Source: Shimia sp. R9_2 (GTDB lineage Bacteria; Pseudomonadota; Alphaproteobacteria; Rhodobacterales; Rhodobacteraceae). From it: 64,000 nt of DNA. The position numbers and the translations under genes are program-made. The notes under the pieces are model-generated. The model did not search any database. It worked only from the letters and a program-made list of their open reading frames with translations, and had not been told where the DNA came from. Location: the NCBI RefSeq assembly GCF_017743735.1, contig NZ_JAGHRO010000003.1, forward strand, positions 62,001-126,000, read 5' to 3'. Shown one piece after another: positions 5,675 through 21,932 of the stretch; position 1 is the first letter of the stretch; the number at the start of each line of letters is the position of its first letter.

Positions 5675-5694
5675 GGTCTGACACAGCGAAAATC

Positions 5695-5728
5695 AAAAAC
5701 GCGGCTCCCGATTGGGGCCGCGTTTTTT
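5695..5728 (+). terminator. Rho-independent terminator of fabF-mltG
   Basis: AAAAACGCGGC is paired with GCCGCGTTTTT around an inner CCC/GGG and a short loop, followed by a run of T. It lies 20 bases after the mltG stop and faces a minus-strand gene, so it could work in both directions (A-run on the left, T-run on the right). Confidence 0.85.
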
Positions 5729-5761
5729 GTTGTCATGACTCGGCAGGACGCTGCGCGGATC

Positions 5762-5935
5762 TTAGCAAATGTCCTCTGGGCGCATTTCCATCTCCACTTC
5801 GATGGGCGCTGGTTTCTGAAAGGTATTGGTGATCGCATCTGCCGCCGGGCCTGCCTGCACAGTGATGAGCAGCAGCGCAGCGGCGAGCGCCAGTTTTCCG
5901 CGCCATGACAGCTTGGAAAGAAAAGTCGTACCCAT
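5762..5935 (-). CDS. Small exported or membrane protein, 57 aa, unknown
   Basis: The start at 5935 is chosen because GAGGGA lies 7 bases upstream of it; a longer frame up to 5977 lacks this. The protein has a basic N-terminus (LSWRGK), one hydrophobic stretch (about 13-28) ending in an AGPAADA-like signal cleavage region, and a short acidic tail ending in Cys. I recognise no family. It lies opposite the GTA operon and shares the upstream region with it. Confidence 0.5.
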   Translation of the reverse strand: MGTTFLSKLSWRGKLALAAALLLITVQAGPAADAITNTFQKPAPIEVEMEMRPEDIC

Positions 5936-6087
5936 GACTTGGTCCCTCAAAATGACACTTTGAGCACCCCACCGCACAAACCTCTACAAATCGATAAGGC
6001 CGGGAATGTGGCGCATTGCTTGGCATCAGGAAACACAGCGTTTCCGGTTTTGCAAAGCGGATGCGCAACGGTCTGCGCACGGTGCGT

Positions 6088-6141
6088 TAAGTGACTGTAA
6101 GTGCTTAAAATATTGACTTGAGACACGATGCTTCATAGCGT
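6088..6141 (+). promoter_or_regulatory. Candidate GTA operon promoter with TAAGTG direct repeat
   Basis: The 313-base gap 5936-6248 holds TTGACT (6113-6118) and TAGCGT (6136-6141) with a 17-base spacer, 107 bases before GTA gp1. Immediately upstream, TAAGTG occurs twice (6088-6093 and 6098-6103), a 10-bp period that puts both copies on the same helix face, ending 9 bases before the -35. That is where an activator would contact polymerase. GTA operons of this group are known to need a dedicated activator (GafA in Rhodobacter capsulatus); assigning this repeat to it is a guess. No other feature was seen in the gap. Confidence 0.45.
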
Positions 6142-6248
6142 TTGGTCCATGCTGGACCACCTCTGGTTGGCGGCTTTCTGCCGAAAGCGCGGGTTGGATG
6201 GGGACTTATGCGGAGGGGATCACTGCGCATGAGAGGCGATGAGCACCA

Positions 6249-6599
6249 ATGACACATTATTTTCCGCCCCCGGGCGCGCGCACGCTTGATCCTGAATTGG
6301 GCGTGCTTCGGAAGACTTTGTCCGATCTCAACCAAGATCTGCTGCGTGTGCATAACGCGCTGCGCGCAGAGGATTGGGCACAGTTTGACGAGGCAACGCA
6401 GGTCTATGGTCATCTGCGGCAGTGCATCCGGTTGGCCTTATTGATGGAGGCAGACTTTGAAGAACGCGATGCAAGACAGGGCCATGCCGCCCGAAGCAGC
6501 CCCCTTGACCTCGATGCGGCACGAACTTCGATCCGGTGCCGCCTGGATCGCCTCCGAACCTGCCGAGGTTCAGGCGGCTTTTCTGGACAGTCTGAGTGA
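6249..6599 (+). CDS. GTA gp1, small terminase (TerS)-like protein
   Basis: A 116-residue, largely helical protein, the right size and place for GTA gp1, shown in R. capsulatus to be the small terminase. Typical features are the DLLRVHNALRAEDWAQFDEA helical segment and the late LDLDAARTSIRCRLDRLR segment. It starts at ATG 6249, with GAGAGG 12 bases upstream. Its last 47 codons overlap the start of the large terminase in another frame. It would recognise DNA for headful packaging, without strong sequence specificity in GTAs. Confidence 0.75.
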   Translation: MTHYFPPPGARTLDPELGVLRKTLSDLNQDLLRVHNALRAEDWAQFDEATQVYGHLRQCIRLALLMEADFEERDARQGHAARSSPLDLDAARTSIRCRLDRLRTCRGSGGFSGQSE

Positions 6600-7869
6600 G
6601 GGGGAGCTGTTGGCGCTCCCCTTTTTGTTTGATTTCTGGGCGCTGCCGCATCAGCTGCCGCCCGACGGCGACTGGAAGACCTGGGTGATCCTGGGAGGGC
6701 GCGGGGCAGGCAAAACGCGCGCGGGGGCTGAATGGGTGCGCAGTATGGTGGAAGGCGCGCAGCCGCATGATCTGGGACAGGCGCGGCGGGTGGCTCTGGT
6801 CGGAGAGACCATAGATCAGGTGCGCGAAGTGATGATTTTTGGCGAAAGCGGGCTGATAGCCTGTGCGCCGCCGGATCGGCGACCTGTTTGGGAGGCGGCG
6901 CGGCGCAGGCTTGTCTGGCCAAATGGGGCGATTGCGCAGGCGTTTTCTGCCCATGATCCAGAGAGCCTGCGCGGACCGCAATTTGATGCGGCCTGGGTGG
7001 ATGAGCTGGCGAAGTGGCGCAATGCGCAGGCGACGTGGGACATGTTGCAGTTTGCGCTGCGGCTTGGCGAGAACCCGCAGCAGGTGGTGTCAACGACGCC
7101 GCGCAATGTAGCCGTGCTCAAGAAACTGCTGAAGGCGGACAGCACGGTGCAGACCAGCGCGCCGACTGAGGCCAACAGGGCGTATCTGGCAGAGAGTTTC
7201 CTGCGAGAAGTCGAGGCGCGCTATGCCGGTACACGGCTGGGGCGGCAGGAGCTTGCCGGAGAGCTGCTGGAGGACATGGACGGCGCGCTTTGGACACATA
7301 GCCAGCTGGAGGGCCTCAGATGTGAGGCGCTGCCGGAGATGGACCGGATCGTGGTGGCGGTGGATCCGCCGGTGAGCGGGCATGCGGGGTCTGATGAATG
7401 CGGGATCATTGTGGTGGGCGCCTGCACCAAAGGAGCGGTGCAAGAGTGGCGGGCCTGTGTGGTCGATGACGTGAGTGTGCGGGCCGCCAGCCCGGATACC
7501 TGGGCGCGGGTGGCGCTGACCGCGATGGAAAGCTGGGGCGCGGACCGGCTGGTGGCGGAGGTCAATCAGGGTGGGGATCTGGTGCAAGCGGTCATCAATC
7601 AGATTGACCCGTTGGTGCCTTACAAAGCGGTGCGCGCCAGCCGCAGAAAGGCTGCGCGGGCAGAACCTGTGGCTGCGCTTTATGAACAAGCGCGTGTGAC
7701 CCATATGGCCGGGCTTGAGACGCTCGAAGATCAGATGTGTGAAATGACCACCCAGGGTTTCGCGGGGCAAGGCAGCCCGGATCGCGTGGATGCACTGGTC
7801 TGGGCCTTGCATGAGCTGATCATTGCGCCATCGGCACATTGGCGGCGGCCGAGACTGCGCGAGCTGTGA
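6457..7869 (+). CDS. GTA gp2, large terminase (TerL)
   Basis: A 470-residue packaging ATPase/nuclease. Walker A GGRGAGKT is at 80-87, followed by RAGAEWVR. The Walker B-like AAWVDELAKW carries Asp182-Glu183. The nuclease domain begins with VAVDPP (Asp303) and ends with a conserved RVDALVWAL (Asp445). The chosen start is TTG 6457 because GGAGG lies 6 bases upstream; internal ATGs at 6469, 6484 and 6514 are alternatives, and GTA homologues would fit the last. It drives DNA into the prohead and cuts it. Confidence 0.95.
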   Translation: MKNAMQDRAMPPEAAPLTSMRHELRSGAAWIASEPAEVQAAFLDSLSEGELLALPFLFDFWALPHQLPPDGDWKTWVILGGRGAGKTRAGAEWVRSMVEGAQPHDLGQARRVALVGETIDQVREVMIFGESGLIACAPPDRRPVWEAARRRLVWPNGAIAQAFSAHDPESLRGPQFDAAWVDELAKWRNAQATWDMLQFALRLGENPQQVVSTTPRNVAVLKKLLKADSTVQTSAPTEANRAYLAESFLREVEARYAGTRLGRQELAGELLEDMDGALWTHSQLEGLRCEALPEMDRIVVAVDPPVSGHAGSDECGIIVVGACTKGAVQEWRACVVDDVSVRAASPDTWARVALTAMESWGADRLVAEVNQGGDLVQAVINQIDPLVPYKAVRASRRKAARAEPVAALYEQARVTHMAGLETLEDQMCEMTTQGFAGQGSPDRVDALVWALHELIIAPSAHWRRPRLREL

Positions 7870-8000
7870 GCTGCGCAACACCGACCGTGCGATCAGGAAG
7901 TCGCAAGTTAAGACAAATTTTAGATACCTGTCAGGGTCAAAACGCCAAACGCGTGGCGGGATGCGACAGCGCAAGAACCTTCAGAATGGGAGCGTCATAA

Positions 8001-9200
8001 ATGCTAGGAAAGATCTTTCAGCGTGGCACAGAGCCAAAGGCCCCCGTGACAGCGACGCCTGAGAAGAAGGCAAGCGCCACGGGGCCGCTTGTGGCCTGGC
8101 ACGGTGCAGGGCGCGTGGCCTGGAGCCCGCGCGATACGGTATCGCTCACGCGCACAGGCTTTGCGAGCAATCCGGTGGGATTTCGCTGTGTCCGGATGAT
8201 TGCCGAGGCCGCTGCGGCCTTGCCGGTGGTCTTGCAGGACAGCCGCGCACGCTTTGAGGATCATCCCATACTGGCGCTTTTGGTGCGGCCCAATGGCGGG
8301 CAGGGACATGCGGAACTGTTTGAGGCGCTTTATGGGCAGTTGCTGCTTTCGGGCAATGGCTATGTCGAAGCGGTTTCAGGTGCGGCGGAGGCGCCTGCAG
8401 AGCTGCATGTGCTGCGCTCTGACCGCATGAGCGTGGTGCCGGGCAATGACGGCTGGCCGATTGCTTATGAATATGTGGTGGGCGCGCGCAAACATCGGTT
8501 TGCGGTGGGGGATGTCTCTCCGATTTGCCATATCAAGATGTTTCACCCTCAGGACGATCATTATGGGTTGTCGCCCATGCAGGCGGCGGCGATGGCGATG
8601 GATGTGCACAACAGTGCCTCGCGCTGGTCCAAAGCATTGCTCGACAATGCGGCGAGACCGTCCGGCGCGATTGTCTACAAGGGGCATGAGGGGCATGGCA
8701 GCCTGAGCAATGATCAATATGACCGGCTGGTGAGCGAGATGGAGAGCCACCATCAGGGCGCGCGCAATGCAGGGCGGCCGATGTTGCTGGAAGGTGGTTT
8801 GGACTGGAAGCCCATGGGGTTTTCACCAAGCGACATGGAGTTTCAGAAAACCAAAGAGGCCGCGGCGCGGGAGATTGCCTTGGCATTTGGCGTACCGCCG
8901 ATGCTGCTTGGTATCCCCGGAGACGCGACCTATGCGAACTATCAGGAGGCGAACCGCGCGTTCTACCGCCTGACGGTTCTGCCTCTGGCGAGCCGGGTCA
9001 CGGCGGCGGTGGGGACTTGGCTGGCGCAACATACCGGCGAGGCTTTGCAGCTCAAACCCGATCTGGATCAGGTGCCGGCCTTGGCACCGGAGCGGGAGGC
9101 GCATTGGACCCGCATCGCAGGGGCGGATTTTCTGAGCGAGGCGGAGAAACGCGCGATGCTGGGTCTGCCTGCGCCCGCGGCTGAGGATGGCGATGCGTGA
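8001..9200 (+). CDS. GTA gp3, portal protein (HK97 family)
   Basis: A 399-residue phage portal protein that forms the dodecameric DNA channel at the capsid vertex. Recognisable parts are the early SNPVGFRCVRMIAEAAAALP segment, the LLLSGNGYVE block, the HIKMFHPQDDHYGLSP block and the GVPPMLLGIPGDATYANYQE segment near residue 300, all typical of the HK97 portal family in GTAs. It follows gp2 after 131 bases. The end overlaps gp3.5 by 14 bases. Confidence 0.95.
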   Translation: MLGKIFQRGTEPKAPVTATPEKKASATGPLVAWHGAGRVAWSPRDTVSLTRTGFASNPVGFRCVRMIAEAAAALPVVLQDSRARFEDHPILALLVRPNGGQGHAELFEALYGQLLLSGNGYVEAVSGAAEAPAELHVLRSDRMSVVPGNDGWPIAYEYVVGARKHRFAVGDVSPICHIKMFHPQDDHYGLSPMQAAAMAMDVHNSASRWSKALLDNAARPSGAIVYKGHEGHGSLSNDQYDRLVSEMESHHQGARNAGRPMLLEGGLDWKPMGFSPSDMEFQKTKEAAAREIALAFGVPPMLLGIPGDATYANYQEANRAFYRLTVLPLASRVTAAVGTWLAQHTGEALQLKPDLDQVPALAPEREAHWTRIAGADFLSEAEKRAMLGLPAPAAEDGDA

Positions 9201-9420
9201 GCCGCGCTACGGTTTTGAGCATTTTGACTGTGCGCCGGGTCTGCGGCTTGAGGCGCATGAGCGGGTGGCAAAGTTGCAGTTTGATAGTTTGAACCGCCGA
9301 TTGGACAAGATTGAGCAGCTGATGGAGCGCTTGGAGCGGCGGCTTTGGCTGACAGTATATGGCGTGGTTGGCGTGATCCTGTCTCAGGCCGTCCAGTCGC
9401 TGATGAGCGTGACGCCGTGA
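9187..9420 (+). CDS. GTA gp3.5, small protein
   Basis: A 77-residue protein at the conserved position between portal and protease that corresponds to orfg3.5 of Rhodobacter GTA. It has a helical, charged middle (RLDKIEQLMERLERR) that could form a short coiled coil, followed by one hydrophobic segment (about 53-71). ATG 9187 lies inside the gp3 end, and a second ATG at 9193 is possible. Its role is unknown; the position and the membrane-like segment are all that can be said. Confidence 0.75.
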   Translation: MAMREPRYGFEHFDCAPGLRLEAHERVAKLQFDSLNRRLDKIEQLMERLERRLWLTVYGVVGVILSQAVQSLMSVTP

Positions 9421-9450
9421 GGCGCATTTGGCGAAGTGAGAGGGAAGCGG

Positions 9451-10002
9451 ATGCAGCAACAGATGGAACTTGAAACCAAATTCGCGCGCGTCGGGAAAGG
9501 GCTGGAGGTGGAAGATGGCAATGTGATTGCCGGATATGCCAGCCTGTTTGATGCGCCAGACCAGGGTGGCGATGTGGTGCAACGCGGTGCCTACGCCAAG
9601 TCGCTGAAGGCGCTCTCAAAAAGCGGACGTCAGGTGAAGATGCTGTGGCAGCATGATCCGCGTGAGCCGATTGGCATCTGGGATGAGGTGCGCGAGGACG
9701 GCAAAGGGCTGTGGGTCAAAGGGCGACTGCTGGAGAGTGTGGCCAAAGGCCGTGAAGCGATGGCTTTGATTGCGGCCGGTGCGATTGACGGATTGTCGAT
9801 TGGCTACCGCACGCAGAAGGCGGCGAAGAGTGCGAAAGGCCAAAGGCTTTTGCAGGAGCTTGAGCTTTGGGAGGTGTCCCTGGTGACGTTTCCGATGCTG
9901 CCAAGCGCGCGGCTGACCGCGAAGGAGGACGGCGCGATGCCTGCATTGCGCGCGATGGTGGCTGCGTTTGAAGACGCCAGCCGTGTGATGACAGCGCGTT
10001 AG
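9451..10002 (+). CDS. GTA gp4, prohead protease (HK97 family)
   Basis: A 183-residue capsid maturation serine protease. The catalytic residues are His68 in MLWQHDPREPIG and Ser116 in IDGLSIGYR; the start of the fold (GYASLFDAPDQGGDVV) is also clear. AGAGGG 6 bases before ATG 9451 decides the start over the GTG at 9436. It cleaves the N-terminal scaffold arm of gp5, encoded next. Confidence 0.93.
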   Translation: MQQQMELETKFARVGKGLEVEDGNVIAGYASLFDAPDQGGDVVQRGAYAKSLKALSKSGRQVKMLWQHDPREPIGIWDEVREDGKGLWVKGRLLESVAKGREAMALIAAGAIDGLSIGYRTQKAAKSAKGQRLLQELELWEVSLVTFPMLPSARLTAKEDGAMPALRAMVAAFEDASRVMTAR

Positions 10003-10035
10003 AGCGCGCGAAACAACAGTAGCGAGAACGGGAAG

Positions 10036-11217
10036 ATGTCGAAAACCGAGACCGAGTCTCGGATCGGAGAAGATGTGTCTTCGATCCAGGATGTGACCGA
10101 TGCGGTGGAGAAATTCACCAGCGATCTGAGTGCCTTCACAGGTGACATTCAAGCAGAGTTGAAACAGCAGAAAGAGCGATTGACCATGTTAGAGCGCAAA
10201 TCCATTTCCGCGGCGCGGCCACATCTGGCCGCAGCCACCGACTTTGACGCGCCCCATCAGAAGGCGTTTGACGCCTATCTGCGCACAGGGGAAGATGACG
10301 GGCTGCGTGGGCTTGAGCTTGAGGACAAGGCTATGTCCTCAAGTGTGAACAGCGATGGCGGTTATCTGGTGGATCCGCAGACCGCAGAGACCATCAAATC
10401 CGTGCTCAACAGCACCGCGAGCATCCGCGCGATTGCCAATGTGGTGACGGTTGAGGCGGGCTCTTATGATGTGCTGATTGACAGCTCTGATGTGGGCGCG
10501 GGCTGGGCGGATGAGACCAGCGCGACCGCTGAAACCGGCACGCCGAATATCGAGCGCATTGCCATTCCGCTGCATGAGCTTTCGGCCCTGCCCAAAGCCT
10601 CGCAGCGGCTGTTGGATGACAGTGCGTTTGACATTGAAGGCTGGCTAGCGGGTCGGGTCGCCGACAAGTTTGCCCGCGCTGAAGCGGCGGCCTTCATCAA
10701 CGGGGATGGGGTGGACAAACCCACGGGGATCATGACCTATCCCACCGTTGCCGAAGCAAGCTGGAGCTGGGGCAACATCGGTTATGTGGCCACGGGTGCG
10801 GACGGGGATTTCAACGGTGCGGATGCGCTGGTGGAATTGGTCTATGCGCTGGGGGCGCAGTATCGCGCCAATGGCAGTTTTGTGATGAATTCCAAGACCG
10901 CCGGAGCGGTGCGTAAGTTGAAAGACGCGGACGGGCGCTTCCTGTGGTCAGACGGATTAACGGCGGGAGAGCCGGCGCGATTGCTCGGCTATCCGGTGCT
11001 GATTGCCGAAGATATGCCGGACATTGCCAGCGGCGCAGACGCCATTGCCTTTGGAGATTTTGCGGCGGGCTACACTGTGGCGGAGCGGCCTGATCTGCGC
11101 GTGCTGCGCGATCCCTTCAGCGCCAAACCTCATGTGCTTTTCTATGCCACCAAACGCATAGGCGGCGACGTGAGCGATTTTGCGGCGATCAAATTTTTGC
11201 GGTTTGCCTTGTCGTAA
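10036..11217 (+). CDS. GTA gp5, major capsid protein (HK97 fold)
   Basis: 393 residues. The N-terminal ~98 residues are helical and charged (scaffold or delta domain with coiled-coil character, 20-55). A likely gp4 cleavage region is around Lys98, just before the SSVNSDGGYLVDPQ segment that begins mature GTA capsid proteins. The core carries HK97-capsid features such as LSALPKASQRLLDDS, the FINGDGVDKPTGIMTY segment and the LLGYPVLIAEDMP segment. It builds the small capsid. Confidence 0.96.
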   Translation: MSKTETESRIGEDVSSIQDVTDAVEKFTSDLSAFTGDIQAELKQQKERLTMLERKSISAARPHLAAATDFDAPHQKAFDAYLRTGEDDGLRGLELEDKAMSSSVNSDGGYLVDPQTAETIKSVLNSTASIRAIANVVTVEAGSYDVLIDSSDVGAGWADETSATAETGTPNIERIAIPLHELSALPKASQRLLDDSAFDIEGWLAGRVADKFARAEAAAFINGDGVDKPTGIMTYPTVAEASWSWGNIGYVATGADGDFNGADALVELVYALGAQYRANGSFVMNSKTAGAVRKLKDADGRFLWSDGLTAGEPARLLGYPVLIAEDMPDIASGADAIAFGDFAAGYTVAERPDLRVLRDPFSAKPHVLFYATKRIGGDVSDFAAIKFLRFALS

Positions 11218-11359
11218 TTCCCGGGTGGGCGCGGGGGTGATCCTCCAAGCCCCGGGCGCGCGTCGGACTGCGTCACGTTGTCTGGCTTACCCCCTCCGTT
11301 GAAGCGACGTGAGGACGCGCGCCCTTCTGACCGTAAGTGAGAATATTTGGAGTTATTCC
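11218..11359. other. gp5-gp6 intergenic gap, GC-rich inverted segments
   Basis: This is the largest gap but one within the GTA operon. It contains CCCGGG-rich complementary blocks around 11220-11262 that could fold into an imperfect hairpin without a T tract. It could attenuate transcription after the highly expressed capsid gene. No gene was seen here. Confidence 0.3.
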
Positions 11360-11959
11360 ATGATGTTAATCGAAGAAGCTTCGGTGCCTGTTTCGGCTTT
11401 GCCGGTGGCTGCATTCAAGGAGCATTTGCGGCTTGGCAGCGGCTTTGCGGAAGACAGTTTGCAGGACGGCGTGCTGGAAAGCTTTCTGAGTGCAGCGATG
11501 AGCGCTGTGGAAGCGCGCACCGGCAAAATCCTGATCCGGCGGACTTTTGGCTGGACGGTTTATGGCTGGCGCGATGGGGTGGCGCAGGGGCTTCCGGTGG
11601 CGCCGGTCACGCAAATCCTTGAAGTGACGCTGACAGATGCGCAGGGCGTGGCTGTGACGGTCGCTTCAAGTGCTTACCAGCTTGTGCAGGACACGCATCG
11701 ACCATCGGTGCGCGGTGTGGCCGGAGCCTTGCCCGGGATCCCCACCAACGGCAGCGTGACCCTGCGCTTTGAGGCGGGGTTCGGCGCAACCTGGGCAGAG
11801 ATCCCTGCAGACTTGCGGCAAGCGATTCTGCTGTTGGCGGCGCACTACTATGAGTTCCGGCAGGAAACCACGCTGAGTGAAGGCTGTATGCCGTTTGGCG
11901 TGACCAGTTTGCTGGAGCGGTATCGCGCGGTTCGCTTGGGGCTGGGGGCAGACCAATGA
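11360..11959 (+). CDS. GTA gp6, head-tail connector adaptor
   Basis: 199 residues, with the start at ATG 11360 because GGAG lies about 7 bases upstream; a longer frame from 11309 has no such site. It resembles the gp6-like head-tail connector family: N-terminal helices with LPVAAFKEHLRL, then VEARTGKIL, and a C-terminal ADLRQAILLLAAHYYEFR helix. It forms the ring below the portal. The stop overlaps gp7 (ATGA). Confidence 0.88.
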   Translation: MMLIEEASVPVSALPVAAFKEHLRLGSGFAEDSLQDGVLESFLSAAMSAVEARTGKILIRRTFGWTVYGWRDGVAQGLPVAPVTQILEVTLTDAQGVAVTVASSAYQLVQDTHRPSVRGVAGALPGIPTNGSVTLRFEAGFGATWAEIPADLRQAILLLAAHYYEFRQETTLSEGCMPFGVTSLLERYRAVRLGLGADQ

Positions 11960-12306
11960 GCCCGGCGGTCAAAGCAGTGACGCTGTCGCGCAAGCTGGTA
12001 CTGGAGCGGCCCTTGGCGGCACCGGACGGCGCAGGCGGCTTTGCCCGCACATGGGAAGCTCTTGGAACGGTCTGGGCCGACGTGCGCCTGCGCAGCGGGC
12101 GGGAGCGTGATGGCGGGGACATGTCGCTGAGCAGCGTGCGTTACAAGATCACGCTGCGCGGGGCTCCGGTCGGGTCGCAGATGCGCCCGATGCCGGACTG
12201 CCGGTTTCGCGACGGGGCTAGGATTTTCACAATCGAGGCTGTGGCGGAGGTGGATGGCCTTGGGCGCTACCTGATTTGCCACGCCACCGAGGAGGAAGCG
12301 CAATGA
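11956..12306 (+). CDS. GTA gp7, head closure / stopper protein
   Basis: A 116-residue small beta-barrel protein of the phage head-tail adaptor type: GGFARTWEALGTVWADVR, then GRERDGG, then YKITLRG, a pattern common to head closure proteins. It overlaps gp6 and gp8 by four bases at both ends, so translation is coupled. It would seal the capsid exit after packaging. Confidence 0.85.
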   Translation: MSPAVKAVTLSRKLVLERPLAAPDGAGGFARTWEALGTVWADVRLRSGRERDGGDMSLSSVRYKITLRGAPVGSQMRPMPDCRFRDGARIFTIEAVAEVDGLGRYLICHATEEEAQ

Positions 12307-12719
12307 GCTATGGGTCAGGCGCAGCGCTTCAGACGGCAGTGTATCAGGCGCTCCAGGCGGATGTGGCTCTGGATGGTCTGGTGAATGGCGCGATCTATGA
12401 CGCGATGCCTGCCGGTCAGGTGCCTGAGCTGTTTGTCTCGCTGGGCGCAGAGACCGTGCGGGACCGCTCTGATCAGTTGAGCGGCGGCGCGGAGCATCGC
12501 TTTGTTGTCTCCGTTGTCTGCGAGGCGACAGGATTTGCGCGCGCCAAGACCGTTGGGGCGGCAATCAGTGACATTCTGACTGGCAATCGGCTGCCCTTGG
12601 CGCGTGGGCGTGTGGTGTTTCTCGTCTTTGATCGCGCAACGGCCAGACGGGACACGCAGAAAAATCTGCGTCGGATTGACCTGCGGTTTCGGGCGCGGGT
12701 CGAGGACGATCAAAGCTAA
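12303..12719 (+). CDS. GTA gp8, tail terminator / completion protein (DUF3168)
   Basis: A 138-residue protein of the DUF3168 family: LQTAVYQALQADVALDGLV, an IYDAMPAG turn, then strands with FVSLGAET and HRFVVSVVCEATGFARAK. ATG 12303 overlaps the gp7 stop. In siphophage-like particles this family terminates the tail tube at the head side. Confidence 0.87.
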   Translation: MSYGSGAALQTAVYQALQADVALDGLVNGAIYDAMPAGQVPELFVSLGAETVRDRSDQLSGGAEHRFVVSVVCEATGFARAKTVGAAISDILTGNRLPLARGRVVFLVFDRATARRDTQKNLRRIDLRFRARVEDDQS

Positions 12720-12735
12720 GTTTCGGAGAGAGATG

Positions 12736-13149
12736 ATGGGTGCACAGAGCGGCAAAGATCTGTTGATCAAGGTAGATCTGACCGGGAGTGGTCAGTTTGA
12801 GAGCGTGGCGGGGCTGCGCGCGACACGGCTCAGTTTTAACGCGGAAAGCGTGGATGTGACCTCGCTTGAAAGCCAGGGAGGCTGGCGGGAGTTGCTGGCA
12901 GGAGCCGGGGTGAAATCGGCGGCGCTGAGTGGATCGGGGGTGTTCAAAGACGCCACCACGGATGAGCGTGCGCGCCAGATCTTCTTTGACGGGGAAACAC
13001 CGAACTTTCAGGTGGTTATTCCCGATTTTGGCATCGTGGAAGGGGCGTTTCAGATCACGTCCATCGAGTATGCGGGCAGCCATGACGGCGAAGCAACCTA
13101 TGAGGTGGCAATGGCCAGCGCCGGGGCGCTGAGCTTTGCGGCGGCGTAA
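12736..13149 (+). CDS. GTA gp9, major tail protein
   Basis: A 137-residue tail tube protein (TP901-1-type major tail family): GKDLLIKVDLTGSGQFESVAG opening, RATRLSFNAESVDVTSLESQ, and a DGEATYEVAMASAG end. GGAG about 7 bases upstream favours ATG 12736 over the adjacent ATG 12733. It stacks as hexamers to make the tail tube. Confidence 0.9.
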   Translation: MGAQSGKDLLIKVDLTGSGQFESVAGLRATRLSFNAESVDVTSLESQGGWRELLAGAGVKSAALSGSGVFKDATTDERARQIFFDGETPNFQVVIPDFGIVEGAFQITSIEYAGSHDGEATYEVAMASAGALSFAAA

Positions 13150-13151
13150 AA

Positions 13152-13499
13152 ATGGCCAATCCGTTTGCAGGTGAAGTGACGCTGACGATGAACGGGCAGT
13201 GTCATGTACTCAAGCTCACATTGGGGGCGCTTGCGGAGCTTGAGGCGCAGCTTGGCGAAGACACGCTGGTGGCCTTGATTGCGCGGTTTGAAAACGGAGC
13301 GTTTGCGAGCCGTGATGTGCTGGCGCTGATTCTGGCCGGGCTGCGCGGTGGCGGATGGGCCGGAGTGAAAGACGAGCTGATGCAGGCGGATATTGCAGGT
13401 GGGCCGATGGAGGCGGCGCGGGTGGCCGCGCAGCTGTTGGTTGGCGCATTTGGCGCGCCGGAGGTCCATGGCGCACGAGAGACAGATGGCGCGGTTTGA
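13152..13499 (+). CDS. GTA gp10, tail assembly chaperone-like protein
   Basis: A 115-residue GTA-family protein: N-terminal two-strand segment, then LTLGALAELEAQLGEDTLVALI, then VLALILAGLRGGG. It lies between tail tube and tape measure, where siphophages encode tail assembly chaperones (often G and G-T by frameshift). Here the second protein, gp10.1, is a separate overlapping gene in another frame. Confidence 0.85.
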   Translation: MANPFAGEVTLTMNGQCHVLKLTLGALAELEAQLGEDTLVALIARFENGAFASRDVLALILAGLRGGGWAGVKDELMQADIAGGPMEAARVAAQLLVGAFGAPEVHGARETDGAV

Positions 13500-13689
13500 C
13501 TGGCCTGCACTGATGCGCGCCGGGATTGGCGGATTGCGACTGACACCAGCGGACTTCTGGGCGCTCACGCCAGCGGAATTGTCGCTGTTGTTGGGAGAGG
13601 GGCGCGGCCAGAGCGCGCTCACTCGCGCAGGGTTTGACGCCTTATTGCGCGCCTATCCAGACAAATATGAGGAGCCAGAAGATGGATGA
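13468..13689 (+). CDS. GTA gp10.1, second tail assembly chaperone-like protein
   Basis: A 73-residue protein (67 if ATG 13486 is used) with the conserved GTA pattern FDWPALMRAGIGGLRLTPAD, then FWALTPAELSLLLG. GGAGG lies 3 bases before ATG 13468, while GAGAG lies 4 bases before ATG 13486, so the start is uncertain. It overlaps gp10 upstream and gp11 downstream. Confidence 0.8.
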   Translation: MAHERQMARFDWPALMRAGIGGLRLTPADFWALTPAELSLLLGEGRGQSALTRAGFDALLRAYPDKYEEPEDG

Positions 13690-14335
13690 TTTTGACGCCT
13701 TTGACGGAGAGATTGAGGCGTTGGAAGGCAGCCTCGGCGATGCGGCGGCGATGGTGGCCGGTTTTGACGGGGCGCTGCGGCGGATGCAGCAGTCTTTGAG
13801 CGCGACGGGTCAGGATGCGGCGAGCCTTGAAAAGAGCATGAACCGCGGGTTGCGCAAAGCCTTTGATGGTCTTGTGTTTGATGGCGCCAAGCTTTCAGAC
13901 GCGCTGAGCAATCTGGCGCAAAGCATGGTGAATGCAGCGTATCGCAGTGCAGCGCGGCCGGTTCAGGATCAGCTTCGGCAGGTCATCACCAGTGGTGTTG
14001 GCAGTTTTCTGGGGGATCTGTTGCCGTTTGCGGATGGGGCCGGTTTCACACAGGGGCGCGTAATGCCCTTCGCCAATGGGGGCGTCGTGAACGGGCCGGT
14101 GAGCTTTCCCATGCGTGGTGGGCGCGGCTTGATGGGGGAAGCGGGCCCCGAAGCGATTTTGCCGCTGTCGCGCGGGCCGGATGGAAAGCTTGGCGTGCGC
14201 AGCGCGCAGGGGGCGGTCCCGGTGCAAGTGGTGGTGAATGTCTCAACGCCGGATGCCGAGAGTTTTCAGCGCTCCAAAGGGCAGATCGCGACGCAGATGA
14301 GCCGGGCTTTGGCACGGGCGCAACGCAACAGATAG
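13682..14335 (+). CDS. GTA gp11, short tail tape measure protein
   Basis: A 217-residue protein starting inside the end of gp10.1. It has a helical N-terminus, then ALSNLAQSMVNAAYRSAARP, a Gly/Phe-rich hydrophobic stretch, and the tape-measure signature GGVVNGPVSFPMRGGRGLMG followed by GPEAILPLSRG. Tape measure length sets tail length; this is far shorter than in usual long-tailed phages and agrees with the short tail of GTA particles. Confidence 0.9.
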   Translation: MDDFDAFDGEIEALEGSLGDAAAMVAGFDGALRRMQQSLSATGQDAASLEKSMNRGLRKAFDGLVFDGAKLSDALSNLAQSMVNAAYRSAARPVQDQLRQVITSGVGSFLGDLLPFADGAGFTQGRVMPFANGGVVNGPVSFPMRGGRGLMGEAGPEAILPLSRGPDGKLGVRSAQGAVPVQVVVNVSTPDAESFQRSKGQIATQMSRALARAQRNR

Positions 14336-14344
14336 GAGGGCGCG

Positions 14345-14977
14345 ATGAGTTTTCATGAGGTGCAGTTTCCCACGACGTTGAGTTTTGGCTCCGTAGGAGG
14401 GCCGCAGCGTCGCACGGAGGTGGTGACGCTGGTGAATGGATTTGAGGAGCGCAACACGCCTTGGGCGCATTCGCGGCGCAGCTATGATGCAGGCTTGGCG
14501 ATGCGTTCTGTGGATGACCTAGGGACGTTGATTGCGTTTTTTGAGGCGCGGCAAGGGCAGCTCAACGGGTTTCGCTGGAAAGACTGGTCGGACTACAAAT
14601 CATGCCCAGTGTCTCAGGATGTGCGGTTTGATGATCAGGTGATCGGATCAGGAGATGGCGGCAACACGCTGTTTCAAATTATAAAAACCTATGTATCCGG
14701 TGCGCAGAGCTATGCGCGGCCGATCCACAAACCGGTAGAGGGCACTGTGCGGGTCGGCGTGGACGGTGTTGCGCTTGTGGAAGGCAACGACTTCACAGTG
14801 AACAGCGAGACTGGCGAGATTACATTGATCTCCCCTCCTGCTGTCGGCTCTGAGGTCACCGCAGGGTTCGAGTTTGATGTGCCGGTGCGTTTTGACACGG
14901 ATCAGATCCAGACCAGCGTTGCGAGTTTCAAGGCGGGCGATGTGCCCAATGTGCCGATTGTCGAGGTGCGGGGCTGA
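14345..14977 (+). CDS. GTA gp12, distal tail protein (DUF2460)
   Basis: A 210-residue DUF2460 protein that forms the distal tail ring. Recognisable parts are SFGSVGGPQRRTEVV, then the RQGQLNGFRWKDWSDYKSC stretch, and a C-terminal barrel with RVGVDGV and TGEITL. AGGAGG sits 5 bases before the ATG. The stop overlaps gp13 (TGATG). Confidence 0.92.
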   Translation: MSFHEVQFPTTLSFGSVGGPQRRTEVVTLVNGFEERNTPWAHSRRSYDAGLAMRSVDDLGTLIAFFEARQGQLNGFRWKDWSDYKSCPVSQDVRFDDQVIGSGDGGNTLFQIIKTYVSGAQSYARPIHKPVEGTVRVGVDGVALVEGNDFTVNSETGEITLISPPAVGSEVTAGFEFDVPVRFDTDQIQTSVASFKAGDVPNVPIVEVRG

Positions 14978-15861
14978 TGGCGTTTCAAACAGAGCTTTTA
15001 GCGCATCTTCAAAGCGGGGCCACAACGGTTGCGCGCGCCTGGGGGATTGAGCGGAGTGACGGTGTTAGACTGGGATTCACGGATCATGATCGGGATCTGA
15101 GCTTTGAAGGCTTTGCTTTCCGCGCCTCCACTGGATTGACGGCGAGCGCTCTTGAGCAAGGCACCGGGTTGGCTGTGGACAACAGTGAGGCGGTTGGGGT
15201 GCTCAGCGATGCTTCGGTGCGCGCCGAGGATATCGCAGCGGGGCGTCTGGATGGGGCGGAGATCACCTGTTGGCTGGTGAACTGGGCGATGCCCACTGAG
15301 CGCAGTGTGCTGTTTCGCGGCTCCATCGGGGAGATGCGGCAGGCCGGTGGTGCTTTTGTGGCCGAGCTGCGCGGGTTGTCAGAACGGCTGAATATGCCGC
15401 GTGGGCGGGGCTATCAAAGGGCATGCACCGCCGTGTTGGGAGATGCGTCCTGCGGGGTGGATGTGACCGACCCTGCGATGGTAGCGGACCCGGTGGTGGA
15501 AGAGCTGCGCGGCCGCAGCGTGTTTCGGTTCAGCACTCTGTCGGGTTTTGATCCGGGATGGTTCACACATGGTCAGCTGCGCGTGCTCAGCGGTGCGGCA
15601 GACGGGCTCACGGGGTTGATCAAGCGCGATACTTTTGAGGGTGGCTGGCGTGTGGTCGAGCTGTGGGAGCCGATGCCGACTGCGCTGGCGTCTGGGGATC
15701 AACTGCGTCTGATTGCGGGCTGCGATAAGCGGTTTTCAACCTGCGGGGCGAAATTTAGCAACAGGCTGAACTTTCAAGGGTTTCCCGACATTCCCGGTGA
15801 AGACTGGATCACCAGTTATCCCACCAAGAGTGGCAGCAACACCGGAGGCAGTTTGCGATGA
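14977..15861 (+). CDS. GTA gp13, baseplate hub protein (DUF2163) with Cys cluster
   Basis: A 294-residue DUF2163/BR0599-type hub protein. Its first half is a hub domain (GFTDHDRDLSFEG). Cys150, Cys159, Cys249 and Cys256 are placed to bind a metal or iron-sulfur cluster; as I recall, the R. capsulatus GTA structure showed an Fe-S cluster in this protein. It connects the distal tail ring to gp14 and gp15. The end overlaps gp14 (ATGA). Confidence 0.92.
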   Translation: MAFQTELLAHLQSGATTVARAWGIERSDGVRLGFTDHDRDLSFEGFAFRASTGLTASALEQGTGLAVDNSEAVGVLSDASVRAEDIAAGRLDGAEITCWLVNWAMPTERSVLFRGSIGEMRQAGGAFVAELRGLSERLNMPRGRGYQRACTAVLGDASCGVDVTDPAMVADPVVEELRGRSVFRFSTLSGFDPGWFTHGQLRVLSGAADGLTGLIKRDTFEGGWRVVELWEPMPTALASGDQLRLIAGCDKRFSTCGAKFSNRLNFQGFPDIPGEDWITSYPTKSGSNTGGSLR

Positions 15862-16355
15862 ACACAGCGGACGGAGCACAGGTGGTGGAAATCGCCCGAC
15901 GCTGGATTGGGACGCCTTATCGCCATCAGGCAAGCCTGATGGGCGCAGGCACGGATTGCCTGGGGCTTATTCGTGGGGTGTGGCGCAGGCTTTACGGCCA
16001 AGAGGCCGCTTTGGTGCCGCCCTACACAAAGGACTGGGCAGAAGCGCGCAATGAGGAAGTGCTCTGGCAGGCGGCGGCAACTTATTTGCTGCCAAAATCG
16101 CTCGCCGAGGAGGCTGCGGGGGATGTGCTGTTGTTTCGTATGAAATCGGGCGCTGTGGCCAAGCATCTTGGCATCGCAGGGCGCGTGGGGGCGGAGGCCA
16201 GCGTGATCCATGCCTACGGCGGACATGCGGTGGTGGAGAACGCGCTGAGTCTGCCGTGGCGTCGCCGCATCGTTGGGCGTTTTGCGTTTCCTGCGCCCGA
16301 GACGGATCTTTCAAAGACAACAGCCAATAAGGAGTGCAGCACATGGCAACGGTGA
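15858..16355 (+). CDS. GTA gp14, NlpC/P60-family cell wall peptidase
   Basis: 165 residues. The catalytic Cys34 lies in GTDCLGLIRG, the catalytic His103 in VAKHLGIAG, and His118 in a VIHAYGG segment could complete the site. It sits at the tail tip and would cleave peptide cross-links of peptidoglycan during DNA entry. The last residues overlap the gp15 start. Confidence 0.93.
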   Translation: MNTADGAQVVEIARRWIGTPYRHQASLMGAGTDCLGLIRGVWRRLYGQEAALVPPYTKDWAEARNEEVLWQAAATYLLPKSLAEEAAGDVLLFRMKSGAVAKHLGIAGRVGAEASVIHAYGGHAVVENALSLPWRRRIVGRFAFPAPETDLSKTTANKECSTWQR

Positions 16356-19300
16356 TTTTGGCTGCGGCAGGCGCGGCTGTTGGAGGATCGCTTGGTGGGT
16401 CGGTTGCCGGGATCACGACTGCGGCGGTTGGCCGCTTCGCCGGCGCGACCGTTGGCAAGCTGATTGATCAGAGCCTGCTGGGTGGCGGTGCCGATGTGGT
16501 GGAAACCGGCAAAGTGGAGCGCTTTCGCCTGACTGGATCTGCGGAAGGCGCAGCACAGGCGCGTGTCTTTGGACGGGTGCGCCTGCCCGGGCAGGTGATC
16601 TGGACAACACGCTTTTTGGAAACCGTGACTGAGACAGAGGCGAGCGGCGGCAAGGGGCGCCCCAGCCAGCCCAAGACGCGCAGCTACAGCTATTCGGTGT
16701 CTCTGGCGATCGCCCTGTGTGAGGGAGAGATTGCCCGCGTGGGGCGGATCTGGGCGGATGGTATTGAGCTCTCCCCAGAAGATTTCACGTTTCGTGTGCA
16801 CAGCGGCAGCGCCGATCAACTGCCCGATCCCAAGATGGAAGCGGTGGAAGGCGCAGGCATGGTGCCAGCTTATCGCGGGACCGCTTATGTGGTGATTGAA
16901 GATCTCGAGCTGGCACCCTTTGGCAATCGTGTGCCGCAGTTCAGCTTTGAGGTTGTGAGACCAACGCCAAAGTCTGTGCCGTCACATGCCTCTGACTATG
17001 CCGAGACCGTGCGTGCTGTCGCCTTGATGCCGGGAACAGGTGAGTACGCCTTGGCCAAGTCACAAGTCTATTTGCAGAGCGAAACCGGTGAAACGCGCGC
17101 TGCGAATGAAAACACACCGGCTGGAAAGTCGGATTTTTGCGCGTCAGTGGAGGCGCTGACCGAGGAGTTGCCAAACTGTAAGGCCGCATCGCTGATCGTC
17201 AGTTGGTTTGGCAATGACCTTCGTGCGGCAGAGTGTGAGCTGAGACCCAAGGTTGAGCAGAGTGACGTGGCTGGCGAGAAGATGCCTTGGCGTGTTGCTG
17301 GCGTTCCTCGTGCGCAGGCGCAGGAGGTAGCACGTGTCGCGGGGCGACCGGTTTATGGGGGGACGCCTGCGGATGCAGCGGTGATTGAGGCGATCCGCCA
17401 TTTGCAGAGCGCTGGGCAGGACGTGATGTTTTACCCGTTCATTCTGATGGAGCAGTTGGAGGGCAATGGGCGTAGCGATCCATGGAGCGACGCTACAGAC
17501 CAGCCGGTGTTGCCGTGGCGGGGGCGTATCACGCTTTCCGAAGCACCGGGGCAGGTTGGGACGACAGATGGCACAAGCGCGGCGGATGCGGAGGTCGCAG
17601 CGTTCTTCGGCACCGCGCAAGCTACAGACTTTCAGGTGTCGAGCGATGGCGTGAGCTACAGTGGGCCGGAGGAGTGGTCTTATCGGCGGTTTATACTGCA
17701 CAATGCCGCGCTATGTGCCGCGGCGGGGGGCGTTGACGCCTTTTGCATCGGCTCGGAAATGCGCGCCCTGACACAGATTAGAGGGGCCAACGGATTTTCG
17801 GCTGTTGAGCAGTTGATCGCCCTTGCGGCGGAGGTGCGTATCCTACTCGGATCATCCGTCAAGATCGGCTACGCGGCTGATTGGTCGGAGTATTTTGGCT
17901 ACCACCCGCAGGATGGCAGCGGGGATGTGTATTTTCATCTAGATCCCCTCTGGGCGGATGCGGAGATCGATTTTGTCGGGATCGACAACTATATGCCGCT
18001 GTCAGATTGGCGTTATGAGGCGGACCATAGTGATGGGGAGTCCTGGGATGCGGTTCACAATCTCTCCTATCTGAAAACACAGATTGCGGGCGGAGAAGGG
18101 TACGACTGGTATTACCCGTCGCGCGCGGCGCGGGATGTGCAAAGCCGCAGTCCGATTGAAGATGGTGCATTTGGCGAACCTTGGGTCTATCGCTACAAAG
18201 ACATCAGGAATTGGTGGTCCAATCCGCATCATGAGCGCATTGGAGGCCAGCGTCAGGCCACTCAGACAGCATGGGTGCCAGCTTCAAAGCCTGTCTGGTT
18301 TACGGAGATAGGCTGCGCAGCAATCGATTTGGGTACAAACCAGCCCAATAAGTTTCTGGATGAAAAATCCTCTGAATCCGCTTTGCCGTTTTACTCCAGA
18401 GGGTTGCGGGACGACCTTATGCAGCAATCTTATATGCAAGCCTTGCACGAGTATTGGAAGCAGCCAGCCAACAATCCTGTCTCCGGGGCATATGGCGGGC
18501 CTATGGTCGACACCCAGCGCATGTTTGCCTGGGCATGGGATGCACGTCCGTTTCCCGCCTTTCCCAATGAACGGGAGATTTGGACGGATGGTCGAAACTA
18601 TGCCAAGGGGCATTGGCTCAATGGGCGGGCCTCAAACCGCACCTTGGCGTCGGTTGTTGAGGAGATCTGCATTGCTGCTGGCGTTGAGCACTACGATGTT
18701 TCGCAGCTCTACGGTGTCGTGCGTGGCTATGTGCAGAGTGACGTGGCAGATGGGCGCGCCGCTTTACAGCCTTTGATGTTGCGCCATGGATTTGATGCGC
18801 TGGAGCGCGATGGCGTCCTGTGTTTCGTGATGCGGGGCTTGCGTGGCGAAACAGTGTTGAACACAGATGATTTGGCGCTTTCAAGTGATATCGATGGGGA
18901 TTGGGAGCTGAGCCGGGCACCGAATGCGGAAATGGCGGGCCGTGTGCGTTTGAACTTCACCTTGGCGGAGCGGGACTTTGATGCGGCCTCAGAGGAAGCC
19001 ATTTTGCATGATGAAGCCACTTTTGCGGTGGCGCAAAGCGAGGTGACGGAGGTTTTGACGCGCAGTGAGGGTCGGCAGACCGCTGAGCGCTGGCTTGCAG
19101 AGTCCCGCGTCGCCAGAGACCGCGTGAAGCTGGCTCTCCCCCCGAGCCGGATGGAGCTTGGCACGGGGGATGTGGTCGCGCTGGGCCAAGATGGCATGGA
19201 GCAACAGAGCTTTCGACTTGATCGCGTGACACAGCAGGGGGCGCAGGTTCTGGAGGGCGCACGCATCGCGCCTTCGATCTATGTTCCCTCAGAGACGGAA

Positions 19301-20266
19301 AGTGATCCGCCCAGAGGCAGTGGGTTTGTGCCGCCGGTACCAGTACAGTCGCTTTTTCTGGATGTGCCTTTGATGACGGGGAACGAAGTGCCCCACGCGC
19401 CCCATATTGCCTGCACCGGCAAACCGTGGCCGGGCAGCGTGGCGGTTAATTCCAGTGATACGGACGAGGGCTACGCGCTCAATCAGCTTCTGGACGCGCC
19501 TGCCTTCGTTGGGATTACCAAATCGCCGCTACTGTCTGCTGATGCAGGACTGTGGGACCGCAGCGCTGGGCTGAAGGTCGAGATGATCCAAGGTACGCTT
19601 CAAAGCCTCCCGCGCCTTGAGCTGCTAAATGGTGGCAATCTCGCCTACATCGGCGATGGCACCCCCAAGGGCTGGGAGGCTTTTCAGTTCCAGACCGCCG
19701 AGCTGGTCGGGGAGCGCCGATACAGGTTATCAGGTCGCCTCAGAGGGCAGCTTGGGACAGAAGGCGATGTTTCAGCAGCCTGGCCGGAGGGAAGTTGGCT
19801 TGTGGTCATGTCTCCGGCGGTGACACAGATTGATTTGCCCCGCCAATACCGGGGTGCCGAGCGCAATTACCGTATCGGCCCCGCGCAGCGCGCATTGTTT
19901 GACCCGACATATACCCACTATGTGGAGGCGTTTGAGGGGATTGGCCTTAGACCCTATGCCCCTGTGCATCTCAAGGCGCAAAGGGATGCCGCAGGGGACC
20001 TCACATTGAGCTGGATCAGACGCACCCGACTTGAAGGAGACAGTTGGGAGGGGCTGGATGTGCCTTTGGGAGAAGAGAGCGAAGCCTACTTGATCAAAGT
20101 TTTTGTTGGAGAGGTTCAAGTGCGGGAAGAACAGGTGCAGACACCGAGCTGGACGTATTCTCAAGCGGATCAGCAGACAGACGGGATTGGCGCTGGAGGG
20201 CGCATTGAGGTGGCACAGATCTCAGCCATTTTTGGTGCGGGCAGCGCAGCGCAAATCGCAGTTTAG
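16343..20266 (+). CDS. GTA gp15, host specificity / tail tip megatron protein
   Basis: 1307 residues, the largest gene of the cluster. AAGGAG about 9 bases upstream selects ATG 16343. A Gly/Ala-rich N-terminus (GAAVGGSLGGSVAG) is followed by a tail hub region. A GTA-type TIM-barrel glycosidase-like domain lies around residues 430-730 (DPLWADAEIDFVGIDNYMPL, VWFTEIGCAAIDLGTN), then a phage-tail type domain and a C-terminal fibronectin-like segment. It likely contacts the recipient surface and may hydrolyse glycan. Confidence 0.93.
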   Translation: MATVILAAAGAAVGGSLGGSVAGITTAAVGRFAGATVGKLIDQSLLGGGADVVETGKVERFRLTGSAEGAAQARVFGRVRLPGQVIWTTRFLETVTETEASGGKGRPSQPKTRSYSYSVSLAIALCEGEIARVGRIWADGIELSPEDFTFRVHSGSADQLPDPKMEAVEGAGMVPAYRGTAYVVIEDLELAPFGNRVPQFSFEVVRPTPKSVPSHASDYAETVRAVALMPGTGEYALAKSQVYLQSETGETRAANENTPAGKSDFCASVEALTEELPNCKAASLIVSWFGNDLRAAECELRPKVEQSDVAGEKMPWRVAGVPRAQAQEVARVAGRPVYGGTPADAAVIEAIRHLQSAGQDVMFYPFILMEQLEGNGRSDPWSDATDQPVLPWRGRITLSEAPGQVGTTDGTSAADAEVAAFFGTAQATDFQVSSDGVSYSGPEEWSYRRFILHNAALCAAAGGVDAFCIGSEMRALTQIRGANGFSAVEQLIALAAEVRILLGSSVKIGYAADWSEYFGYHPQDGSGDVYFHLDPLWADAEIDFVGIDNYMPLSDWRYEADHSDGESWDAVHNLSYLKTQIAGGEGYDWYYPSRAARDVQSRSPIEDGAFGEPWVYRYKDIRNWWSNPHHERIGGQRQATQTAWVPASKPVWFTEIGCAAIDLGTNQPNKFLDEKSSESALPFYSRGLRDDLMQQSYMQALHEYWKQPANNPVSGAYGGPMVDTQRMFAWAWDARPFPAFPNEREIWTDGRNYAKGHWLNGRASNRTLASVVEEICIAAGVEHYDVSQLYGVVRGYVQSDVADGRAALQPLMLRHGFDALERDGVLCFVMRGLRGETVLNTDDLALSSDIDGDWELSRAPNAEMAGRVRLNFTLAERDFDAASEEAILHDEATFAVAQSEVTEVLTRSEGRQTAERWLAESRVARDRVKLALPPSRMELGTGDVVALGQDGMEQQSFRLDRVTQQGAQVLEGARIAPSIYVPSETESDPPRGSGFVPPVPVQSLFLDVPLMTGNEVPHAPHIACTGKPWPGSVAVNSSDTDEGYALNQLLDAPAFVGITKSPLLSADAGLWDRSAGLKVEMIQGTLQSLPRLELLNGGNLAYIGDGTPKGWEAFQFQTAELVGERRYRLSGRLRGQLGTEGDVSAAWPEGSWLVVMSPAVTQIDLPRQYRGAERNYRIGPAQRALFDPTYTHYVEAFEGIGLRPYAPVHLKAQRDAAGDLTLSWIRRTRLEGDSWEGLDVPLGEESEAYLIKVFVGEVQVREEQVQTPSWTYSQADQQTDGIGAGGRIEVAQISAIFGAGSAAQIAV

Positions 20267-20384
20267 CCTCGATCACGAGAAAATGAGGTGTTCCATTCCA
20301 TTTGGTTTTATGTGCATTCACACCTTTGAATTTGGCGCTTGTTGATTACCTAGTGTAGTCTGACAGGGACAGAAAGGTGTGACC

Positions 20385-21206
20385 ATGGCTGAGATGCAAC
20401 CAAAAGTAACCGAGCTGGACCCGGTTTGGCAGCAGATCACGCGTGAAGCCCAAGAGGCCGTGCGTGAAGAACCTCTGATGGGTGGTTTGGTACACGCTTG
20501 TGTATTGCACCATCACTCCATTGAACGCGCGTTGAGCTATCGCTTTGCGGCGAAACTCTCGTCCAATGAGATGTCGATGGTGATCCTGCGCGAGATTGCG
20601 GATGAAGCTTTTGCCGCTGATCCGGCCCTCGCAGCGTCGGCGCGTGCGGATCTTATGGCGATTTATGAGCGTGACCCAGCTTGCCACCGTTTGCTGCAGC
20701 CGATTCTTTATTTCAAGGGCTATCAGGCGGTGCAGGCCTACCGTATCGGCCATTGGCTTTGGGAGCAGGGGCGCTATGACCTGTCCTACTTCATCCAGAT
20801 GCGCACCAGTGAGATTTTTGGCATCGACATCCATCCGGCTGCCAAGATTGGCAAAGGGATAATGATTGACCACGCCCATTCCATTGTGATCGGCGAAACC
20901 GCTGTGGTGGGCGACAATGTCTCCATGCTGCACTCGGTGACGCTGGGCGGGACCGGCAAAGAGGAAGAAGACCGCCATCCCAAGATTGGCGACGGCGTTC
21001 TGATCGGTGCAGGTGCCAAGGTGCTTGGCAACATTCGCGTGGGGCACTGCAGCCGTATCGCAGCGGGTTCTGTGGTGCTTCAGGAAGTGCCGCCATGCAA
21101 AACCGTCGCGGGTGTTCCTGCGAAAGTGGTTGGTGAGGCCGGTTGTGACCAGCCTGCGGTCAGCATGGATCAGGTGCTGTCCGAAGCGGGCAAGGTCAAA
21201 GTCTAA
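20385..21206 (+). CDS. cysE: Serine O-acetyltransferase
   Basis: A 273-residue enzyme making O-acetylserine for cysteine synthesis. It has an N-terminal helical domain, then a left-handed beta-helix of hexapeptide repeats. Catalytic Asp148 (GIDIHPAA) and His163 (MIDHAHS) are present, with the acetyl-CoA site HSVTLGGTGKEEEDRHPK including His198. AAAGG precedes ATG 20385 (a GTG two codons earlier is less likely). It directly follows the GTA operon but has its own 118-base upstream region and ends in a terminator. Confidence 0.95.
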   Translation: MAEMQPKVTELDPVWQQITREAQEAVREEPLMGGLVHACVLHHHSIERALSYRFAAKLSSNEMSMVILREIADEAFAADPALAASARADLMAIYERDPACHRLLQPILYFKGYQAVQAYRIGHWLWEQGRYDLSYFIQMRTSEIFGIDIHPAAKIGKGIMIDHAHSIVIGETAVVGDNVSMLHSVTLGGTGKEEEDRHPKIGDGVLIGAGAKVLGNIRVGHCSRIAAGSVVLQEVPPCKTVAGVPAKVVGEAGCDQPAVSMDQVLSEAGKVKV

Positions 21207-21222
21207 CCTTATTGAGAATTGT

Positions 21223-21264
21223 CAGAGCGGCTTGTGATTTCTTTTGTGAAATCAAGCCGCTCTG
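21223..21264. terminator. Hairpin between convergent cysE and a minus-strand gene
   Basis: CAGAGCGGCTTG-TG-ATTTC (21223-21241) pairs with GAAATCAAGCCGCTCTG (21248-21264) with a two-base bulge. There is only a weak T-rich tail. The stop codon of the minus-strand neighbour (21252-21254) is inside the right arm, so the element probably serves both genes. Confidence 0.7.
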
Positions 21265-21767: not shown

Positions 21768-21932
21768 AAGTCTCTCCTGACGCTTGGCCCAACCCATGTG
21801 ATGCGTAGCGACGTTATAGGGAGGGTCTTATCAGATGTTTAAACTTGTGCCGGTTTACAACTCAGCCCAGCGGAGAACCGCGTGAAGAGGGCAGCTCTCA
21901 GCGTTATTCCGCTGGAATACGGGCTGAGACGA

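Follow-up and report, generated by a model that had tools for sequence, protein, structure and literature searches.

In Rhodobacter capsulatus, yceG precedes g1 of the gene transfer agent (GTA) cluster and cysE1, which affects GTA/DNA receipt, lies downstream (PMC9552610); GafA binding has been placed within the 174-bp region upstream of g1 (PMC6363796). In other roseobacters, 22 GTA clusters have been described as adjoining cysE (PMC8224337), and CcGTA of Caulobacter has two regulators, GafY and GafZ, according to PMC11150451. Purifying selection on RcGTA-related genes has been reported, as cited in PMC9836097, and GTA pseudogene formation and loss in several lineages, together with the idea of cheaters, are in print (PMC10883770).

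The window analyzed here is a 64,000-nucleotide stretch (62001-126000 of contig C19) of a 4.47-Mb Shimia genome in 25 contigs. All 17 RcGTA-type head-tail genes are present at 6249-20266 on the + strand, each frame ending at its own stop, confirming the original prediction of a full gene set from gp1 to gp15 in order and free of frameshifts or stops. The locus matches RcGTA in its 17 genes and their order, and the two also share yceG/mltG on the upstream side of the cluster and cysE on the downstream side, a single full-length gafA, and an unlinked endolysin and holin. Unlike RcGTA, the window has no g16, because only 112 bases (20267-20378) separate g15 and cysE; moreover, a search for head spikes with a weak probe gave none, and tspA is not beside lysS. 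Compared with the GTAs of other roseobacters, which have the same cluster and the cysE neighbour, no essential difference was found, and the locus represents a further species. In contrast to CcGTA, the genome has one 360-aa GafA rather than GafY and GafZ; Caulobacter vibrioides was the one control genome matching both GTA_TIM and DUF6456. We conclude, with a probability of about 0.93, that the cluster is the structural operon of an R. capsulatus-type GTA, i.e., a system of a known kind.

Gene content of the cluster and its flanks

Pfam matches were obtained for 14 of the 17 genes, i.e., all except g1, g3.5, and g11, and NCBIfam added g3.5, g11, and an above-cut-off match for g14 (Table 1). 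The NCBIfam equivalogs of g3.5, g11, and g15 are named after GTAs. When nine cluster proteins were tried against the PDB, the best match was an RcGTA chain for seven (g3, g5, g6, g9, g12, g13, and g15); the sole match of the g11 protein was a tape-measure protein of 612 aa without RcGTA origin. The g1 product matched nothing in Pfam, NCBIfam, PHROGs, or PDB, and we take it as the putative TerS from its place, its length of 116 aa, and conservation near its C terminus across a genus alignment of 17 rows; such a conserved C-terminal stretch has been described for GTA TerS (PMC6854486). The predicted ATGA couplings are seen as 4-base overlaps at g6/g7 and g13/g14; in addition, g12/g13 overlap by 1 base and g1/g2 by 86-143 bases, depending on the choice of g2 start. 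As for the catalytic residues of TerL and of the NlpC/P60 peptidase, which had been claimed to be kept, the TerL translation contains GGRGAGKT and later WVDE, which we take to be the TerL motifs, and the g14 translation has a Cys and a His at positions that presumably are those of NlpC/P60 enzymes. Four Cys are present in the g13 translation; in RcGTA, four hub Cys hold an Fe-S cluster, as described in PMC7296036.

Table 1 Features of the GTA cluster and its borders in window coordinates
Feature	Position	Strand	Basis and remarks
g1 5' leader, possible hairpin 6205-6212 with 6226-6233, Shine-Dalgarno-like GAGAGG	6202..6251	+	Alignment of 16 leaders, folds
g1, putative small terminase (TerS)	6249..6599	+	Position; length 116 aa; C-terminal stretch conserved within genus
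g2, large terminase (TerL)	6469..7869	+	Terminase_6N, Terminase_6C; start uncertain, TTG 6457 or ATG 6514 possible
g3, portal	8001..9200	+	RcGTA portal Rcc01684 E 1.1e-183; TIGR01537
g3.5, GTA head formation protein	9187..9420	+	NF048001, RCAP_rcc01685 family
g4, prohead protease	9436..10002	+	Peptidase_S78, TIGR01543; start GTG 9436 or ATG 9454
g5, major capsid	10036..11217	+	RcGTA Rcc01687 E 1.5e-175
g6, adaptor/head-tail connector	11360..11959	+	RcGTA Rcc01688 E 3.3e-53
g7, head completion	11956..12306	+	Phage_HCP
g8, tail completion	12303..12719	+	Tail_completion_gp17
g9, tail tube	12736..13149	+	RcGTA Rcc01691 E 1.9e-72
g10, tail protein	13152..13499	+	Phage_TAC_11, GTA-gp10
g10.1, tail assembly chaperone	13468..13689	+	Phage_TAC_6; TIGR02216 rcc01693 family
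g11, tape measure, 217 aa	13682..14335	+	NF058675 RcGTA_tape 334.8 bits, cut-off 220
g12, distal tail protein	14345..14977	+	RcGTA Rcc01695 E 4.1e-93
g13, baseplate hub	14977..15861	+	RcGTA chain 6tba_7A E 4.9e-91; TIGR02218
g14, NlpC/P60 peptidase	15858..16355	+	TIGR02219; Pfam NLPC_P60 below gathering score
g15, megatron (baseplate)	16343..20266	+	NF048004 1847 bits; RcGTA 6tba_8A E 0; GTG start 16334 possible
cysE, serine acetyltransferase, host gene adjoining cluster	20379..21206	+	SATase_N

Genes upstream of the cluster are a fabG-like short-chain dehydrogenase gene, a His_biosynth gene, fabF, and mltG, and on its other side lie cysE and pyruvate dehydrogenase-type genes. In the congeners, the cluster sits between mltG and cysE wherever the contig extends that far. 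The gap between mltG and g1 (5675-6248 in the window) varies among the 20 genomes measured: it is 536-574 bases in the six genomes that make up the clade of the window, 442 and 464 bases in two others, and 177-271 bases in the other 12. As had been predicted, no integrase, replication gene, or repressor was detected in a scan of the 17 genes of the cluster and 25 ORFs in its flanks (298-42170), six of the latter having no Pfam family; one flank ORF (21252-21797) gave weak PHROG matches, including an Rz-like one at E 0.0056.

These flanks bear on a highly improbable alternative, namely that the cluster is a prophage that makes an RcGTA-like particle and is still mobile as a phage. That phages have such baseplates is indicated by PDB 8gtc, which we take to be a phage with a megatron-type baseplate: it shares the distal tail, hub, and megatron proteins, and its chains are second-best for g12, g13, and g15, with scores below those of RcGTA. 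Similarly, two genomes (G002 and G027) have a diverged g12-g15 set with no g1-g11 matches nearby. Housekeeping genes on both sides, the lack of integrase, replication, and repressor genes among the scanned flank ORFs, the constant mltG-cysE placement in congeners, and the GTA-named equivalogs nevertheless argue against a prophage, and we consider this alternative to be largely refuted already. The original claim of a GTA rather than a prophage is supported by these equivalogs, the RcGTA best matches, the short 217-aa tape measure, and the housekeeping flanks, and the two checks proposed with it, on unlinked GTA genes and on dN/dS, came out in its favour.

The diverged sets themselves (L063 on contig C7 of G002, and L068 of G027) are 42-54% identical to the window and perhaps belong to a phage with an RcGTA-like baseplate. 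Separately, g15 sequences 58-60% identical to that of the window occur in records labelled as actinobacterial (Enemella evansiae and Nocardioides marinus; L102 and L143), which probably are mislabelled or contaminated.

Selection on the cluster and its loss across the genus

Relative to the nearest relative (G011, with a g15 78% identical to that of the window), NG86 dN/dS was 0.051-0.150 for 16 of the 17 genes and 0.269 for g1, in agreement with the prediction of a cluster under selection with ratios not near 1; because dS ranged from 0.57 to 2.12, and was near saturation for many genes, these ratios are rough. Over all pairs with dS of 0.05-1, the medians were 0.05-0.34 for 16 genes, some of which had very few such pairs (one each for g13 and g15). 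For these comparisons, damaged rows, rows cut by contig ends, and rows of odd length were removed beforehand, which left 17-24 rows per cluster gene. The g1 median was 0.69 over 93 genus pairs, with values up to 1.24, with the caveat that g1 overlaps g2 and aligns poorly; at this longer distance, g1 alone appears not clearly constrained.

GTA_TIM was found in 23 of 25 genus genomes. The cluster is without a damaged gene in 14 genomes, two of which (G012 and G024) have one odd-length frame each, and another three (G005, G019, and G020) are cut by contig ends and undamaged where visible. Two clusters have a single frameshift (in g8 of G001 and g5 of G021), three have stops or several lesions (G007, G013, and G016), and three have large deletions (G003, G004, and G022). 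In G013, an early g3 stop may precede the true start, and only the g14 and g15 stops were counted. On a fabF/mltG/cysE tree, the six disabled clusters in the latter two groups represent six separate events. Because 6 of 25 congeners have a disabled cluster, we conclude that the GTA cluster is not indispensable. Loss in several lineages is already described in PMC10883770 and, therefore, the genus series adds new detail and not a new principle.

Two of the deletions left in-frame joins. In G003 (L069, 6249-7886), portal residues 1-237 are fused to megatron residues 988-1306 in a 545-aa ORF, and in G022 (L061, 13202-15691), TerL residues 5-181 are fused to megatron residues 649-1310 in an 878-aa open frame; that both joins are in frame may be luck, with a chance of about 1 in 9.

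The unlinked genes have largely survived these losses. gafA is open in 23 of 25 genomes (broken in G016, which also has the g15 stop, and cut in G005), and endolysin and holin are open in all 25. In the genomes with deletions, gafA branch dN was not steadily above that of the sister and endolysin was mixed; holin branch dN was higher in four of five comparisons, most so in G022 compared to G020 (0.132 to 0.066). Given their survival in deleted species, gafA and the lysis genes might conceivably have a further role. However, the leftover g2 and g15 pieces in deleted clusters were slightly faster in six of seven comparisons; because they are barely faster, the deletions look recent and the survival of these genes proves little.

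The leader in front of g1

Directly 5' of g1, the window contains TGCGGAGGGG and then CGCATGAGAGGCAATGAGCA, separated by a short spacer. The former block, TGCGGAGGGG, is exact in 15 of the 16 undamaged clusters with g1 available (G009 has one mismatch). Among the eight damaged clusters, it is kept in G013, G016, G021, and G022 and altered in G001, G003, G004, and G007. A model built from 16 leaders was run with cmsearch over 31 sequences, in which the window, itself a training row, scored 69.6 bits. The four clusters with a kept block scored 64-72 bits, G007 scored 40.4 bits, and G004 35.9 bits; in G003, the match of 12.4 bits (E 0.37) was below a 13.1-bit match elsewhere in the same stretch, and in G001 nothing was found at E up to 1. 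G001 combines this ruined leader with its single g8 frameshift, which points to a seventh cluster in decay. Beyond the genus, the model gave weak matches where a g1 candidate begins, in L065 (16.3 bits, E 0.022) and in L066 (15.3 bits, E 0.046); a third one, in L067 (13.5 bits), lies away from g1.

Of 126 cells, 99.2% conform to the 8-pair stem, and none of the eight pairs changes on both sides, leaving the hairpin unproven by covariation. It formed in three of four folded leaders (z -2.80, -1.50, and -2.22); the fourth folds otherwise (+0.75). Rfam gave nothing at the leader and one sub-threshold match upstream, and a literature search aimed at such a g1 leader returned nothing relevant. We also considered the leader as a signal shared across a GTA regulon and rejected this, as, with a limit of E 1, the model found nothing at the loci of gafA, the lysis genes, and lysS in the source genome. 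In the tail-fibre stretch of that genome, the model gave one 11.2-bit match (E 0.89), and a looser consensus script gave four scattered weak matches in the gafA and lysis stretches of relatives (L155-L199).

The leader may act as RNA or, in view of the GafA binding upstream of g1 in R. capsulatus (PMC6363796), as a site in the DNA. Tentatively, and with the odds rather against it, we propose that it is a cis-acting RNA hairpin by the ribosome site that would gate translation of TerS and, thus, the making of the whole particle, in the GTA operons of Shimia and perhaps of relatives, and that it would wear away once the particle is lost. The leader offers a compact target in the search for what may be a new step of control.

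Unlinked genes and proposed working of the GTA

The original prediction had proposed a search for unlinked GTA genes, and this search succeeded in part: gafA, endolysin, and holin were found, as was a candidate for the tail fibre, and head spikes were not found with the weak probe. Specifically, gafA is a single DUF6456 gene on contig C18, which is open and encodes 360 aa with the start suggested by relatives. The endolysin (a muramidase with Glyco_hydro_108 and PG_binding_3) and the holin (GTA_holin_3TM) are encoded side by side on contig C19, 68 kb downstream of the cluster; NF040573 was also matched at these lysis genes. The tail-fibre candidate, which would correspond to rcc00171, is a DUF2793 protein encoded on C11; its N-terminal part matches 8gtc_S (E 1.9e-8), and its best match, 9cod_A, is to the C-terminal part and unrelated-looking. 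As a marker of GTA function, DUF2793 proved uninformative: six of the 25 genus genomes lack it, including three whose cluster is undamaged, and in G002 the only match sits just behind the second, phage-like g12-g15 set.

The head-spike genes (rcc01079/80) were sought with a narrow motif back-translated from nine R. capsulatus residues quoted in PMC7296036. It had one match among the 25 genus genomes, a chance one, and none among 394 family genomes, so that the probe was probably blind. The lone genus match was rejected, as the locus by eye consists of ABC-transporter-like ORFs. tspA is absent beside lysS, where the six neighbours belong to other families; according to PMC13420450, some species that encode a GTA have lost tspA, which is dispensable for transfer, and its absence here therefore has no bearing on membership in the RcGTA type.

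We also considered that the cluster is an intact-looking relic in which expression was lost too recently for lesions to have appeared. Loss is common, as shown by the six separate inactivation events among 25 genomes, and the leader of G022 is unworn though most of its cluster is gone; against this, the cluster, leader, gafA, endolysin, and holin of the window's genome are all undamaged and dN/dS relative to the nearest relative is low, and we regard a relic as very improbable.

For a working R. capsulatus-type GTA, we propose, by analogy with published RcGTA work, that GafA is made in a few cells and probably turns on a promoter before g1, that the operon would build a small tailed particle, and that TerS and TerL would pack host DNA into this particle irrespective of its origin. 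Lysis of the cell would then fall to the unlinked endolysin and holin, and neighbouring cells would take up the DNA fragments. The particle may thus be producible, as had been proposed originally.

The cluster is one more well-preserved member of a known family, and more can be gained from the genus than from this one cluster: its series of intact, broken, and deleted clusters offers a direct way to test why GTAs are retained in some species and lost in others.
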